NCBI GenBank assembly: GCA_029781115.1
Contig: JAKOXG010000004.1
Coordinates: 1 to 64,000, forward strand
Direction: 5' to 3'
Length of the DNA stretch: 64,000 bases
Source: Candidatus Cloacimonadota bacterium
Lineage (GTDB): Bacteria > Cloacimonadota > Cloacimonadia > Cloacimonadales > Cloacimonadaceae
Below, piece after piece: positions 7,137 to 43,230 of the stretch (the first letter of the stretch is position 1; each line of letters starts with the position of its first letter). The translations under genes and the position numbers were made by a program. The notes beneath the pieces are model-generated. The model was not told where the DNA came from, searched no databases, and worked only from the letters and a program-made list of their open reading frames with translations.

Positions 7137-7262
7137 AAACCTTGAAACTACAGCTAAAAATACCAACACATCATCAGTCGGCGGTTCAGCGACCGTTGGC
7201 TGCTTGGGTCGCTTCAGCGAGCGACCATACATTGCGGCGGTTCAGCGACCGCCCGTACGGGT
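7137..7262 (-). repeat. REP-like palindromic cluster between phnD and phnC, with flanking duplication
   Basis: Three reverse-oriented palindromes: 7180-7197 (GGCGGTTCAGCGACCGTT), 7207-7226 (GGTCGCTTCAGCGAGCGACC) and 7236-7253 (GGCGGTTCAGCGACCGCC, followed by CGTAC). To the left, 7140-7178 (CCTTGAAACTACAGCTAAAA...) resembles the first codons of phnC at 7268-7306 (CCTTGAAACCACAACTGAAA...), including encoded L-K-x-Q-L-K-I. This suggests that the 5' end of phnC was duplicated when the cluster arrived. Confidence 0.8.
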
Positions 7263-31375: not shown

Positions 31376-31440
31376 TTTAATCAACCGCATAATACACCCT
31401 TCTTTTCCCCCACTTTTTATACCCCTTTGCTCACTTCGCC

Positions 31441-31517
31441 CTTACTCACCCGCTCGGAGATCCCTCGACGATACTCGGGATTTTCCCGAGAGGCACCGAG
31501 GGATCACCGGGAGGCTC
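31441..31517 (-). repeat. 75-bp GC-rich dispersed repeat, copy 2
   Basis: The reverse complement matches 545-620 over its whole length, from AGCCTCCCGGTGAT to GCGGGTGAGTAAG. Internal palindromes (CTCGGGATTTTCCCGAG) remain able to pair although the sequence differs from copy 1. Confidence 0.7.
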
Positions 31518-31529
31518 AGTAAGGAAGGA

Positions 31530-31669
31530 GCGGTTGCCATACCGCCACAGTAGGGTCGCTCGCCGAAGCGACCGTTAACCTGTAGCCGGCGGTTGCCATA
31601 CCGCCGCAATCAAGCGCAGCTTGATGTTCCTAGGCATTCCAGCAAACGGCGGTTCGTCGGTCGCCCGTA
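31530..31669. repeat. REP-like palindrome cluster upstream of tRNA-Pro terminator
   Basis: Four hairpin-forming units: GCGGTTGCCATACCGC (31530), GGTCGCTCGCCGAAGCGACC (31553), GGCGGTTGCCATACCGCC (31588) and a degenerate GGCGGTTCGTCGGTCGCCCGTA (31648). The stretch TGTAGCCGGCG...GCCGCAATCAAGCGCAGC at 31581 recurs at 42592, so longer modules than the core are copied. Confidence 0.75.
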
Positions 31670-31681
31670 AAAGCTGAGCAC

Positions 31682-38485: not shown

Positions 38486-38800
38486 GGTCGGTCGCCTGCT
38501 TGTACGGGCGGTCGCCGAACCGCCGCTGGTATACACATGCTTGCAAAGCTGCAGCTTGACCCGTACGGGCGGTCGCTGAACCGCCGCTTCCCCGAAGCAC
38601 AGCTTTCAGTCTACGTCTAAAGGTAGCTCAAGGCTTGCTGTGTGCTCGCACGGGCACTCGCCGGAGCACCGTTTCTGTACACATACCAGCGAAGGCGCTA
38701 CTTGCCTGTACGCGCGACCTCCCTCTGAACACCGGCGGTTCAGCGACCGCCCGTACGGGGCTTGTGTGTAGCAGCGGCGGTTCGGCGAGCACCCGTACAA
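38486..38800. repeat. REP-like cluster A: inverted sets of palindromes
   Basis: Forward copies of GTACGGGCGGTCGCTGAACC type at 38502 and 38563 with a diverged one at 38648, then reverse copies (GGCGGTTCAGCGACCGCC) at 38734 and a mosaic at 38776. The segment 38586-38660 recurs in the same direction at 41277-41350, and 38664-38735 recurs inverted at 41742-41813. Nothing coding is seen. A TTGACA at 38806 just after the cluster may start the next transcript, but its -10 is poor. Confidence 0.85.
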
Positions 38801-38888: not shown

Positions 38889-39668
38889 ATGAAACCCGCA
38901 GTAATGCTCTGCATCCTGTTTCTATTTGTCTCAGGGCTGCCGGCGCTCACCGGCTATGGCACGAGCGCAGCTGTCATCAACGACACCGTTGACCCCGCCC
39001 TGACCATCATCGCCCCCAATGGCGGAGAGGCTTGGTACATCGGCGATACCAACAACATCACCTGGACGGCTACCGATACCAATATCCTGTCTAACAGCGT
39101 AAATATCTGGTACAGCCTCAATGGCGGCACGGATTATATCAGCATCGTTGAGAACACTCTCAATGACGGCATCCATTCCTGGGCTATGCCTGCCGTGCAA
39201 AGCTACAATGCCAGAGTACGGATCGAAGTCTCCGACAGCTTTGGCAATTTCACTCGATTAGCCAGCGCCAGCCCTTTTTCTATCACCTATGTTCCACCCA
39301 AGACGCCGGAAGGTGTAAGCGTGGATACTTCCAACAACCAAGATGCCGTGATAACCTGGCAACCGGTGACGCAAAACATCTACAACAGCCCCCTCACCCC
39401 GGATGGCTATATCGTGCTCTATAACGAAACCCCTTACGAAGATGACCACTTCTACTACTTCCTGGGACGCAGCTACACCACCACTTATACCCACCTCGAT
39501 GTGGCAGAATTTCGCAATCAGATGTTTTACAAGGTGGTAGCCTATAAGAACTATCGTGGTGATGTGGACAATGTGCTGAACAGCTTAATTGCCAGTCCTG
39601 ATGCCAAAATCAGTCTGGCGGAGCTCAAAGCCGCAATCCAAAACTACAACGCAGGAGGTGATAAATGA
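38889..39668 (+). CDS. Secreted Ig-like / Fn3 protein
   Basis: 259 residues; GGAGG lies 6 bp before the start. Signal peptide MKPAVMLCILFLFVSGLPA. Residues 35-135 (TIIAPNGGEAWYIGDTNNIT, ending VSDSFGNF) match the Kre9/Knh1-like Ser-Thr-rich anchored domain often seen in secreted bacterial proteins. An Fn3-like module follows (about 137-225). No sorting tail. The stop overlaps the start of the FGE-like gene by 4 bp, so the two are likely partners. Confidence 0.85.
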   Translation: MKPAVMLCILFLFVSGLPALTGYGTSAAVINDTVDPALTIIAPNGGEAWYIGDTNNITWTATDTNILSNSVNIWYSLNGGTDYISIVENTLNDGIHSWAMPAVQSYNARVRIEVSDSFGNFTRLASASPFSITYVPPKTPEGVSVDTSNNQDAVITWQPVTQNIYNSPLTPDGYIVLYNETPYEDDHFYYFLGRSYTTTYTHLDVAEFRNQMFYKVVAYKNYRGDVDNVLNSLIASPDAKISLAELKAAIQNYNAGGDK

Positions 39669-41269
39669 AAAAGCTGCATCTACTGCTCACGCTCGTAGTC
39701 CTGTCTGTCAGCCTGCCTTTCTTTGCCGAAACCATCGCCATGCAAAGCTTTGAAGCCAGTGCAGATGACACTTGGACTTATACAGCCAACCCCGCACCGA
39801 GCAGCAAACGCATCTGGTGGGGGCCGACAGCTGAATCCATGGGAGGGGCCACTGCCTATCACGAGAACTACTATTGGGCGGGCTGGGATCTGGACAATAT
39901 CGAAAGCACTGTCACCCTGACTGCCCTCAGCCTGCAAGCCGGATACACCTACAACGTAAGCTTTTATTACTATACCAGAAACCTCGCTTCCGCCAACGAC
40001 TATTGCCGCTACAGTGTAATGTATGACAACTATAGCAACTGGGACAACTGGGTAACGGTAAATAATAACAGCAATGCCTGGACTATGGTCTCTGTGGATG
40101 TGCCCTCAGGGAGCAACTACCTGCGCCTGCGCCTCTCCAGTAAGTTCGATGGCACAAGCAAATATGCCCATTGGGACTTCATCAAGGTAGAGCGTACCCC
40201 CATCCCCAATTCGCCACCTGAGGTGACTAACGTAACGGTCAGCCAGCGCACCGACGGCAGCAAGATCGTGGACATCTACTACGACCTCTTTGATGCCAAT
40301 GGCGAGCTCTGCGACATCAGCTTCAAGCTCAGCGACAACAACGGTGCCAGTTATGATATCGCTCCCAATCCCGCGAACCTGAGCGGTGACTTCGGTGACG
40401 ACCTGCCCGGCGGTACTGGCAAACACATCATCTGGGAGGCAGGCTCTGAAAGCTATGGTCTGGATGGCAGCTACCTCTACCGGGTCTATGCCGATGACGG
40501 TTCTTCACCACCCGTGCCCGAGAACTTCGTCTTGGTGGAAGGTGGCACTTTCCACAACGGTACTTCCGATGTAACCGTCAGCAGCTTCTACCTTGATAAA
40601 TACGAGCTGACTCAGGCTGAATATCAGGCGGTGATGGGCAACAATCCCTCATACTTTCCGAGTGTTACCAATGGCCCCGTGGAGCAGGTATCTTGGTTTG
40701 ATGCCATAGAATACTGCAACCGCCGCAGTATGCAGGAGGGTTTGACTCCCTGTTACAGCTATGGCAACTACGGCACCAATCCTGATAGCTGGCCTTCAGG
40801 TTGGAACAACAGCAGTGGCAATCACACCAATGTCGCCTGCTCTTGGACTGCCGATGGCTACCGTCTGCCCACCGAGATGGAATGGATGTTTGCTGCAAAG
40901 GGCGGTAATCAGAGCCAAGGCTACACCTATAGCGGTAGCAACAGTATTGACGCCGTAGCTTGGTATTGGGATAATGCTGGAAGAACCACCCACCCAGTTG
41001 GCACCAAAGCAGCTAATGAGCTCGGTCTATACGATATGAGTGGTAACGTCTGGGAATGGTGTTGGGATATTTATGGAAGCTATCCCAGTGGAGCGCAGAG
41101 TGATCCGCATGGTGCTACGAGCGGTTCCTACCGTGTGGTACGCGGCGGTGGCTGTTACGGCAATGCCGACGTCTGCACCGTTTCGTATCGTCTCGACTAC
41201 AACGCTACCGACACGAGCGAAGCTTTAGGGTTCCGCGTTTGCAGGGTTTCCTGTACGGGCGGTCGCTGA
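39665..41269 (+). CDS. Secreted protein with FGE-sulfatase (SUMF1-like) domain
   Basis: 534 residues with signal peptide (MKKLHLLLTLVVLSVSLPFF). Residues 20-180 look like a jelly-roll/MAM-type module, then an Ig-like stretch with DANGELCDISFKLSDNNG. The C-terminal 240 residues form an FGE-sulfatase domain (FVLVEGGTFHNG, YELTQAEYQAVMG, RLPTEMEWMFAAKGG, MSGNVWEWCWD, GFRVCR). Cysteines near RGGGCYGNADVC are not spaced as in true formylglycine-generating enzymes, so a structural or binding role is likely. The last residues after GFRVCR (VSCTGGR) and the TGA stop are encoded by a REP-like palindrome. Confidence 0.87.
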   Translation: MKKLHLLLTLVVLSVSLPFFAETIAMQSFEASADDTWTYTANPAPSSKRIWWGPTAESMGGATAYHENYYWAGWDLDNIESTVTLTALSLQAGYTYNVSFYYYTRNLASANDYCRYSVMYDNYSNWDNWVTVNNNSNAWTMVSVDVPSGSNYLRLRLSSKFDGTSKYAHWDFIKVERTPIPNSPPEVTNVTVSQRTDGSKIVDIYYDLFDANGELCDISFKLSDNNGASYDIAPNPANLSGDFGDDLPGGTGKHIIWEAGSESYGLDGSYLYRVYADDGSSPPVPENFVLVEGGTFHNGTSDVTVSSFYLDKYELTQAEYQAVMGNNPSYFPSVTNGPVEQVSWFDAIEYCNRRSMQEGLTPCYSYGNYGTNPDSWPSGWNNSSGNHTNVACSWTADGYRLPTEMEWMFAAKGGNQSQGYTYSGSNSIDAVAWYWDNAGRTTHPVGTKAANELGLYDMSGNVWEWCWDIYGSYPSGAQSDPHGATSGSYRVVRGGGCYGNADVCTVSYRLDYNATDTSEALGFRVCRVSCTGGR

Positions 41270-41468
41270 ACCGCCGCTTCCCCGAAACACAGCTTCCAGT
41301 CTATATACGAATGGAGCTCGGATCTTACTGAGTGCTAGTACGGGCGGTCGCTGAACCGCCGCTGGTACACACACCCCCGTACGGGCGGTCGCTGAACCGC
41401 CGTTTCTGCAAGGATAGCCAGTACAAGTGCTCGCTGAGGTGCTCGTACGTGCACCCGCTGAAGTGCCG
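41252..41468 (+). repeat. REP-like cluster B at the 3' end of the FGE-like gene
   Basis: Forward copies at 41253, 41338 and 41379 and two diverged ones at 41421 and 41446 (stem GTGC..GCAC-like). The first copy overlaps the final codons of the FGE-like gene and supplies its stop. Confidence 0.85.
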
Positions 41469-41717: not shown

Positions 41718-41853
41718 TGTACGGGCGGTCGCCGAACCGCCGATGTACAGAGGGAGGTCGCGCGTACAGACAAGCAGCACCTTCGCTGGTATGTGTACAG
41801 AAACGGCGGTCCGGCGACCGCCCGTACACGCTAATTCAGCGGCCGCCCGTACA
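41718..41853. repeat. REP-like cluster C, left flank of the RAYT gene
   Basis: Forward copy at 41719, reverse copies at 41804 (GGCGGTCCGGCGACCGCC) and 41835 (diverged, ending GCCCGTAC). Segment 41742-41813 is an inverted copy of 38664-38735. Confidence 0.85.
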
Positions 41854-41884
41854 AGCTGCCCCGTACCACAAGTAGGACACAACC

Positions 41885-42550
41885 ATGAACTCTCGCAACT
41901 ATATCTCTCAGGAAAACATGAAGACCCGCTTCAAATCCAGAAATCTGCCCCACAGGTTTCATCATGAAAAGCCTGTCTTCATCACCTACAGACTTAATTT
42001 CAACCTACCCGAAATGGAGATGGACAAATATCGACAACTGATCAAGGATTGGTATCATGAGCTGCGCGACCTGCCAAAAGACGAAAGAGCACTCCGCTTG
42101 CAAGATAAAGACAAAAGGTTCTTCGATTGGTTTGATCAAATCATCGGCCTTGCTCCCGATATTCCGCAGATTCTTCATCAGGACGGGATCTGCGAGATTA
42201 TCCAGGAGTCATTTCATCATTTTGATGGTCTGCGCTACACCTTGCTCTGCTACTGCATCATGCCAAACCATGTACATGTGCTGATAGCTCCAAATGCTCA
42301 GGACGATGGAACTATCTTTTCCGTCTCGCGGATAGTGTATACTTGGAAGACATATACAGCCAAGGCGATAAACAAGGTATTGGGGCGGCGGGGTAGTTTG
42401 TGGCAAAAGGAGTGCTACGACAGTTTGGTGGATGATAAAGAGGGCTTGGCTAAGGTGATTGGATATATCGTGAACAACCCGGTAAATGCGAATCTGGTGA
42501 AGGATTGGCGGGATTGGAAGGGAACCTATTTGAAAGATGGGGTGATGTAG
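41885..42550 (+). CDS. REP-associated tyrosine transposase (RAYT / Y1_Tnp)
   Basis: 221 residues. The HUH metal motif is His129-Val-His131 in CIMPNHVHVLI. The putative catalytic Tyr178 is in WQKECYDSLV, followed by the family end VIGYIVNNPVNANLV. These fit TnpA_REP proteins, single-strand endonucleases that cut and join at REP hairpins; they are usually single-copy and domesticated. Compared with compact members, an insert of about 60 residues (45-110) separates the first strand from the HUH motif. There are REP-like palindromes within 35 bp upstream and 10 bp downstream, in inverted arrangement, as expected for a RAYT with its own repeats. The frame appears intact. Confidence 0.92.
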   Translation: MNSRNYISQENMKTRFKSRNLPHRFHHEKPVFITYRLNFNLPEMEMDKYRQLIKDWYHELRDLPKDERALRLQDKDKRFFDWFDQIIGLAPDIPQILHQDGICEIIQESFHHFDGLRYTLLCYCIMPNHVHVLIAPNAQDDGTIFSVSRIVYTWKTYTAKAINKVLGRRGSLWQKECYDSLVDDKEGLAKVIGYIVNNPVNANLVKDWRDWKGTYLKDGVM

Positions 42551-42559
42551 GGTTTGCCT

Positions 42560-42780
42560 TGTACGGGCGGTCGCTGAACCGCCCCTCCCCTTGTAGCCGG
42601 CGCTCGCCGAAGCGCCGCAATCAAGCGCAGCTTGATGTTTACAACAGCGGCAGAGCCGCTACCTGCTGCAGGCTGAGCCTGCATGCGGCGCTTCAGCGAG
42701 CGCCGGCTACGGCAGGGGGCGAGGTGGTTCCGGGTGCGGCGGTTCAGCGACCGCCCGTACACGCCGGCGGCGGTTCGGGT
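42560..42780. repeat. REP-like cluster D, right flank of the RAYT gene
   Basis: Forward copy at 42560; GGCGCTCGCCGAAGCGCC at 42598; reverse GGCGCTTCAGCGAGCGCC at 42687; reverse GGCGGTTCAGCGACCGCC at 42738. Further small stems (AGCGGCAGAGCCGCT at 42647) lie between. The piece GGCGAGGTGGTTCCG at 42719 recurs at 43171. Confidence 0.85.
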
Positions 42781-43094: not shown

Positions 43095-43230
43095 AGCGGC
43101 GGTTCAGCGACCGCCCGTACGGGGCGTGTGTGAAGCGGCGGCGGTTCAGCGAGCGCCGGTTACTGCATGGGGCGAGGTGGTTCCGAGTGCGGCGCTTCAG
43201 CGAGCGCCGGCTACGGGTGCGGCGATTCAG
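43095..43230 (-). repeat. REP-like cluster E at the 3' end of the DUF523 gene
   Basis: Reverse copies at 43098 (GGCGGTTCAGCGACCGCC), 43140, 43191 (GGCGCTTCAGCGAGCGCC) and a partial GGCGATTCAGC at 43221 that contains the stop codon of the DUF523 gene. Confidence 0.85.

Follow-up and report, generated by a model that had tools for sequence, protein, structure and literature searches.

The window analysed here, a 64,000-nucleotide stretch of a contig from a bacterium of the Cloacimonadota (FCB group), holds a genuine RAYT/REP system, that is, a REP-associated HUH/Y1 transposase together with a family of short tagged hairpins, ordinary in kind, its GTAC and GTAT tags being the novelty. REPs belong to the most frequent repeats of bacterial genomes. 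The best explanation of the whole, with a probability of about 0.85, is that the transposase (RAYT-1) is a TnpA_REP-type nuclease/transposase working on its own REP family, with a residue-matched tag. Published work describes the REP tag as GTAG or GTGG; natural RAYT/REP pairs with C, A or T as the fourth base are found here, and the change goes along with the residue at a known tag contact. This covariation is the most useful outcome of the analysis, and it suggests a recognition code in which the fourth tag base tracks one or two residues of the protein.

The RAYT-1 gene and protein

The open reading frame at 41885..42550 (+) encodes 221 amino acids and is a RAYT. As the preliminary description had proposed, it is an HUH/Y1 protein with His129-Val-His131; Pfam Y1_Tnp matches it at 1.7e-6, above the cut-off. 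The NCBIfam model REP_Tyr_transpos (NF047646) fits at 9.7e-20, the 70.9 bits falling a little short of the model's cut-off of 80, and the transpos_IS200 model (NF033573) fits far worse (0.051). RAYT-1 alone, as a single-protein query against solved structures, gave no match and a profile search was needed; the profile of 29 relatives had one strong match, 4er8 (E = 5.8e-11), which is Escherichia coli TnpA_REP in complex with a REP hairpin. The AlphaFold2 model of RAYT-1 (mean pLDDT 86.7) likewise matched 4er8 best (E = 1.6e-6), followed by the TnpA proteins of IS608 and ISDra2.

Both histidines of the HUH motif (H129-V130-H131, 42269..42277, +) are invariant in the 29 homologues. Tyr178, earlier named as the catalytic residue, was rejected as the nucleophile: it is not invariant, aligns to E. 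coli W99 and sits on a strand. Y194 (42464..42466, +) aligns with E. coli Y115 in the ..YIYINP.. motif, lies in helix 185-196 of the model and is invariant in the same 29 relatives, and it is therefore Y194, not Y178, that is the nucleophile. Its context, Y194-IVN-N198-P199, is invariant or nearly so, as is H129-V-H131. In the 4er8 alignment W173-Q174 corresponds to W94-Q95, S180 to H101 and D183 to R104, so that the segment W173-Q174-KECYD-S180-LV-D183 (42401..42433, +) holds the equivalents of the tag-contacting residues W94, Q95, H101 and R104. In E. coli, Q95, D/E100, H101 and R104 are listed among the residues that contact GTAG or lie in the contact region (PMC6006769, PMC8266576).

Among the features that mark a RAYT are a HUH motif with a single tyrosine in a Y---NP context, a closer fit to REP-associated than to IS200 transposases, flanking by inverted, genome-dispersed REP hairpins, and a low gene copy number with vertical and not IS-like spread, and RAYT-1 shows these four. 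With the E. coli TnpA_REP/REPtron it shares the HUH + Y---NP core, the W-Q motif, a short hairpin immediately preceded by a 5' GTA tetranucleotide tag, and inverted pairs around a single-copy gene with about 100 scattered copies. It differs in the fourth tag base, which is C (T for the second RAYT described below) where the literature tags have G (GTAG, GTGG), in the Asp and Ser that replace R104 and H101, and in its host. TnpA_Y1 subclass 2.4 has the same NH[IFV]H, WQ and YIxNNP signature, a long protein and repeats flanking the gene (PMC6006769); placement in this subclass is by motif only, and its published REPs are GT[AG]G and partly double-foot, in contrast to the GTAC, GTAT and GTAA found here. 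Subclass 2.4 occurs in Cyanobacteria, Bacteroidetes and other phyla (PMC6006769), so the earlier remark that RAYTs belong mainly to Gammaproteobacteria is out of date. Cloacimonadota are added to these hosts, and no report of RAYT/REP hosts in this phylum was found in the literature searched. CGTC-tagged REPs are also tagged palindromic repeats of diverse phyla, but their tag is CGTC and they have no associated transposase (PMC3733652).

The REP hairpins of the window and the genome

The repeat unit, read 5' to 3' toward the hairpin, is GTAC-G-GGCGGT-CGCYGA-ACCGCC-G. With up to 3 mismatches, 18 copies of its core, GGCGGTTCAGCGACCGCC, lie in the window, where 0.06 would be expected; the genome of 2.25 Mb holds 99 copies with up to 2 mismatches, and a reversed-pattern control gave none. 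The genome-wide count proposed in the preliminary description therefore gives about 99 copies, with the hairpin-plus-tag structure throughout.

RAYT-1 is bracketed by two inverted pairs (41719+/41827- upstream and 42561+/42760- downstream), which bears out the inverted arrangement of one palindrome family claimed earlier. The upstream pair consists of GTACG-GGCGGT-CGCCGA-ACCGCC (41719..41741, +) and GTACG-GGCGGT-CGCCGG-ACCGCC (41805..41827, -), and the downstream pair of GTACG-GGCGGT-CGCTGA-ACCGCC (42561..42583, +) and a GTACG-GGCGGT arm (42738..42760, -). Enclosed in the downstream pair is a second inverted pair with the classical tag (GTAGCC-GGCGCT, 42593+/42710-), whose first arm, GTAGCC-GGCGCT-CGCCGA-AGCGCC, lies at 42593..42616 (+) and whose inverted arm lies at 42687..42710 (-).

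The same family had been reported in gaps at 7.2, 31.5, 38.5, 41.3 and 43.1 kb, and was found in all five. GTACG hairpins lie at 7236..7258 (-), beside a GTATG-GTCGCT hairpin of the GTAT subfamily (7208..7230, -); at 38502..38524 (+), 38563..38585 (+) and 38734..38756 (-); at 41253..41275, 41338..41360 and 41379..41401 (all +); and at 43098..43120 (-), where a degenerate GTAACC-GGCGCT copy (43140..43163, -) and a GTAGCC-GGCGCT copy (43191..43214, -) follow. The gap at 31383..31677 is a 295-bp REP cluster, with GTAGG-GTCGCT at 31550+ and GTAGCC-GGCGGT at 31582+. The hairpin at 41253..41275 supplies the end of the upstream FGE-sulfatase-domain gene (39665-41269), namely its last five codons and a stop TGA in the loop; the same arrangement, at the same place, occurs in a sister species (G033), and both proteins end in CTGGR.

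The repeats are short hairpins, mostly intergenic, in many copies and often in inverted pairs, as REPs are. A 5' GTAG (or GTGG) is not what the main family carries; its tag is GTAC, with GTAG-CC and GTAT in sister subfamilies, and hence it is a tag variant of REPs and not a canonical GTAG REP. When read on the opposite strand, the 'GTAC tail' of the preliminary description stands where classical REPs have their 5' GTAG guide tag. The constancy of GTAC stood for all exact core copies within the window, each of which is accompanied by GTAC; beyond that the family is GTAN, the exact core can bear GTAGCC elsewhere in the genome (L014, L019), and the element is a 5' tag, not a 3' tail. In sampled stretches of the genome, biased to repeat-rich places, the fourth base was C in 54 copies, T in 53, G in 42 and A in 3, and each tag was paired with its own spacer and stem. 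Stem changes were compensated on both sides (GGCGGT/ACCGCC 95, GTCGCT/AGCGAC 70, GGCGCT/AGCGCC 37, GTCGGT/ACCGAC 8, GGTGGT/ACCACC 1).

A second RAYT with GTAT hairpins

One further RAYT copy is present in the genome. RAYT-2 (C19:853-1515) is 74% identical to RAYT-1, has E174, S180 and K183 where RAYT-1 has Q174, S180 and D183, and is surrounded by 11 GTAT hairpins (GTAT-GGTCGCT-TGCCAY-AGCGACC). Copies of the GTAT family number 88 in this genome (G000), 28 in a second genome of the genus (G029) and 13 in G033, so that the family is at its largest where RAYT-2 is present. The dN/dS between the two RAYTs is about 0.16/0.79 (~0.2), and both are therefore kept by purifying selection. The claim that an FCB lineage harbours a RAYT paired with a REP/REPIN-like family of its own is upheld, with the host in the Cloacimonadota, the repeats genome-wide and the gene under purifying selection. 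The RAYT-2 region (L064, C19:400-2050) is a dense BIME-like array near a contig end, in which the families GGTCGCT, CGGCACTC and CCGCTGCTC alternate.

Covariation of protein residues and the fourth tag base

Nearly every related RAYT examined is bracketed by its own GTAN hairpins. When repeated hairpins next to RAYTs were scanned, without regard to the tag, for the trinucleotide upstream of them, GTA ranked first of all 64 (53 of 158 loci); the runners-up reached 26 and below, and several of these were GTA read in a shifted, overlapping frame. In control segments at a distance of 1.8-2.4 kb, GTA-tagged repeated hairpins were seen in 0/47 cases.

The relation between residue and tag was examined in 67 RAYT loci from several phyla in which both tag and residue were clear, the RAYT of G029 being left out. 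Position 174, which is the residue after an invariant Trp and the equivalent of E. coli Q95, was the best-associated protein column (z = 10.2, next 5.8). With Gln174 the tag base was G in 24/32 loci, as opposed to 1/35 with other residues; with Gln174 and His180 together it was G in 23/25, while the remaining combinations had G in 2/42 and A, C or T in 40/42 (p = 1.5e-13). Taken by themselves, the Cloacimonadota loci show the link (p = 4e-5), and so does a set of mostly other phyla (p = 3e-5). G+C content was considered as the cause of the link and rejected, since the association persists when G and C tags alone are compared (p = 1.6e-5).

With columns 172-185 excluded from the tree, Pagel's dependent model was preferred to the independent one for Gln174 (LR 34.1, p = 7e-7) and for the two-residue form (LR 50, p = 3.5e-10), with 14-15 changes of each trait, residue and tag, along the tree. 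Independent pairs on well-supported branches stood at about 5:0 (p about 0.03-0.06). The Gln idea was formed on the first 38 loci and the His180 refinement on 64, after part of the data had been seen; the loci added afterwards point in the same direction, but are few and not significant alone (Gln by G tables [[9,1],[2,2]] and [[2,0],[0,1]]).

RAYT-1 itself (Q174, S180, GTAC) is an exception to a Gln-only rule and fits the two-residue rule only. The two-residue rule is broken by the G029 RAYT (Q174, S180), which lies outside the 67 and whose GTAGCC hairpins have imperfect stems; a possible exception, also outside the sample, is cyanobacterial subclass 2.8, where W[YH] occurs with GT[AG]G tags (PMC6006769). 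In a guide model, tag bases A3N4 select the cleavage dinucleotide, which for GTAC would be GT or GA, an outcome demonstrated in vitro with Marinomonas REP_Mb (PMC8266576). The dinucleotides expected to follow the tags (GTAG-CT, GTAC-GT, GTAA-TT, GTAT-AT) were not enriched in the flanks of 75 families (p = 0.52), a weak test that relied on the flanks in place of mapped cleavage positions.

It is considered slightly better than an even chance that RAYTs across phyla change the fourth REP-tag base (GTAG/GTAC/GTAA/GTAT) by exchanging one or two residues at the positions of E. coli Q95 and H101; RAYT/REP would then be a naturally reprogrammable form of single-stranded DNA recognition, and the two RAYTs of this genome would be recently diverged GTAC and GTAT specificities. 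E. coli TnpA_REP does not tolerate a changed tag, and GTAC substrates are no longer cleaved by Stenotrophomonas maltophilia TnpA (PMC8266576). The matched pairs of enzyme and substrate found here, among them the two paralogues (74% identical) of this genome, make RAYT/REP recognition directly testable.

Distribution and insertion differences between species

A match to RAYT-1 was found in 83 of 125 genomes of Cloacimonadota. Within the genus, G000 and G029 have a RAYT together with the repeats and G030-G032 have neither, in agreement with the expectation in the preliminary description that genomes lacking the RAYT should lack the repeats. That expectation does not hold for G033 (99% complete), which has 122 pattern matches vs 92 in G000 (about 76-122 across counts), and in which no Y1/RAYT was found with three RAYT queries or with Pfam at E<=5. 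Abundant repeats in a relative without a RAYT, named beforehand as counting against the proposal, are thus seen once, and not decisively. The G033 case may be due to a recent loss of the RAYT or to a gap in the assembly, and deletion of the REPtron with REPs remaining has been reported in E. coli strains (PMC3733652). Taken at face value, G033 breaks the strict co-occurrence of RAYT and repeats and speaks against a continuous dependence of the repeats on a resident RAYT.

The RAYT-1 locus is not syntenic in the sister species G033 and G029. A RAYT at the same locus was looked for in both and rejected: G033 has an Nmad3 (nucleotide modification associated domain) gene flanked by GTAC REPs in the syntenic place (L139:1855-2712), and G029 has neither gene. 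The spot looks like a variable locus.

The REP cluster at 31383-31677 (295 bp in G000) is replaced by 14 bp in G033. About 57 bp with one GTAT REP lies inside a G000 open reading frame with the frame kept (L008 ~2659-2716 vs L369 of G033) and is absent in G033; this frame encodes a predicted metallo-hydrolase, beta-lactamase-fold-like, by its HxHxDH motif. Other REP copies are common to G000 and G033 at the same place, for example at the end of the gene before RAYT-1.

Proposed mechanism and alternative explanations

RAYT-1 most likely recognises the single-stranded 5'-GTAC-G-GGCGGT(CGCYGA)ACCGCC hairpin, which would be exposed on one strand during replication. The 5' tetranucleotide would serve as the guide, and RAYT-1 would bind the single strand, cut beside the hairpin through Y194, and join inverted REP pairs (REPIN/BIME-like elements) or carry them to new sites, for the most part intergenic. 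The surrounding hairpin repeats are probably copied by RAYT-1, while the RAYT gene stays at one or two copies, without IS-like movement. Each RAYT lineage has its own stem, loop and tag, and the fourth tag base is matched by the residues at the E. coli Q95/H101 positions, Gln174 + His180 going with G and other combinations with A, C or T.

One challenge to this mechanism concerns the substrate. The GTAC repeats might be an orphan family left by an older enzyme, with RAYT-1 acting on the nested GTAGCC repeats: RAYT-1 has Gln174, as GTAG enzymes do, GTAGCC REPs lie directly downstream of it at 42593-42710, the 72% identical RAYT of G029 is adjoined by GTAGCC repeats, and G033 has GTAC repeats without a RAYT. 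GTAC copies are, however, the most numerous beside RAYT-1 and near-identical, and S180/D183 depart from the GTAG enzymes, which leaves an orphan origin rather unlikely. The match between residue and tag could also reflect phylogenetic inertia, clades sharing both by descent without a mechanism, and the few independent pairs on well-supported branches are in keeping with this. The 14-15 changes per trait and the Pagel result argue against it, as do a single column far ahead of all others that is equivalent to a known tag contact and the support in two separate taxon sets, so that inertia seems an unlikely account.

A different objection is that the hairpins persist because they serve the cell, as transcription terminators, in mRNA stability or as gyrase or IHF sites, with the closeness of the RAYT incidental. 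Most copies are intergenic, such side roles are known from the literature for classical REPs, and G033 is rich in repeats without a RAYT; against this stand the different, matching hairpin family beside each RAYT and its absence from the control segments, the tracking of a protein residue by the fourth tag base, and the presence/absence differences, including the insertion inside a coding gene. A cellular role as the whole explanation is improbable. It is very improbable that gene and repeats form an ordinary IS200/IS605-type unit with the scattered hairpins as its remnants. Such elements (IS608, ISDra2) share the protein superfamily (Pfam Y1_Tnp), the fold, the HUH/Y chemistry and a hairpin with a 5' guide tetranucleotide, and neither G033 nor G029 has the gene at the syntenic position. 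The RAYT-1 system nevertheless has no IS unit: only two RAYT copies, 74% identical, accompany about 100 repeats, where an insertion sequence would show several near-identical gene copies, and the ORF list has no tnpB-like frame beside RAYT-1. The NCBIfam fit (9.7e-20 v 0.051) and the Y194-IVNNP motif of RAYT class 2, in place of the Y---Q of IS200 (PMC6006769), point the same way.

Hairpin arrangements in related genomes

Some relatives carry tandem clusters in place of inverted pairs. Eight GTAC-C-GGCGGT hairpins in one orientation lie within 1 kb at L142 (G009 C73):2347-3290, with a spacing that alternates between ~35 and ~62 bp, and a similar cluster of four was seen at L145 (G004 C48). In many others (L048, L057, L061 and more) the two arms of the inverted pair are unlike hairpins, such as CGCAATCA and CTCAACCT, and the members of such mixed pairs sometimes differ in the fourth tag base (GTAT/GTAA). 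In one genome, G013, a GTAC-A-GGCGGTCGCYGTACCGCC variant is present in at least 22 copies, yet the hairpins flanking its closest RAYT (L037, with Gln, His and Arg at 174, 180 and 183) carry GTAG; a further RAYT of the same genome (L246), with Ala at position 174, may own a GTAC family.
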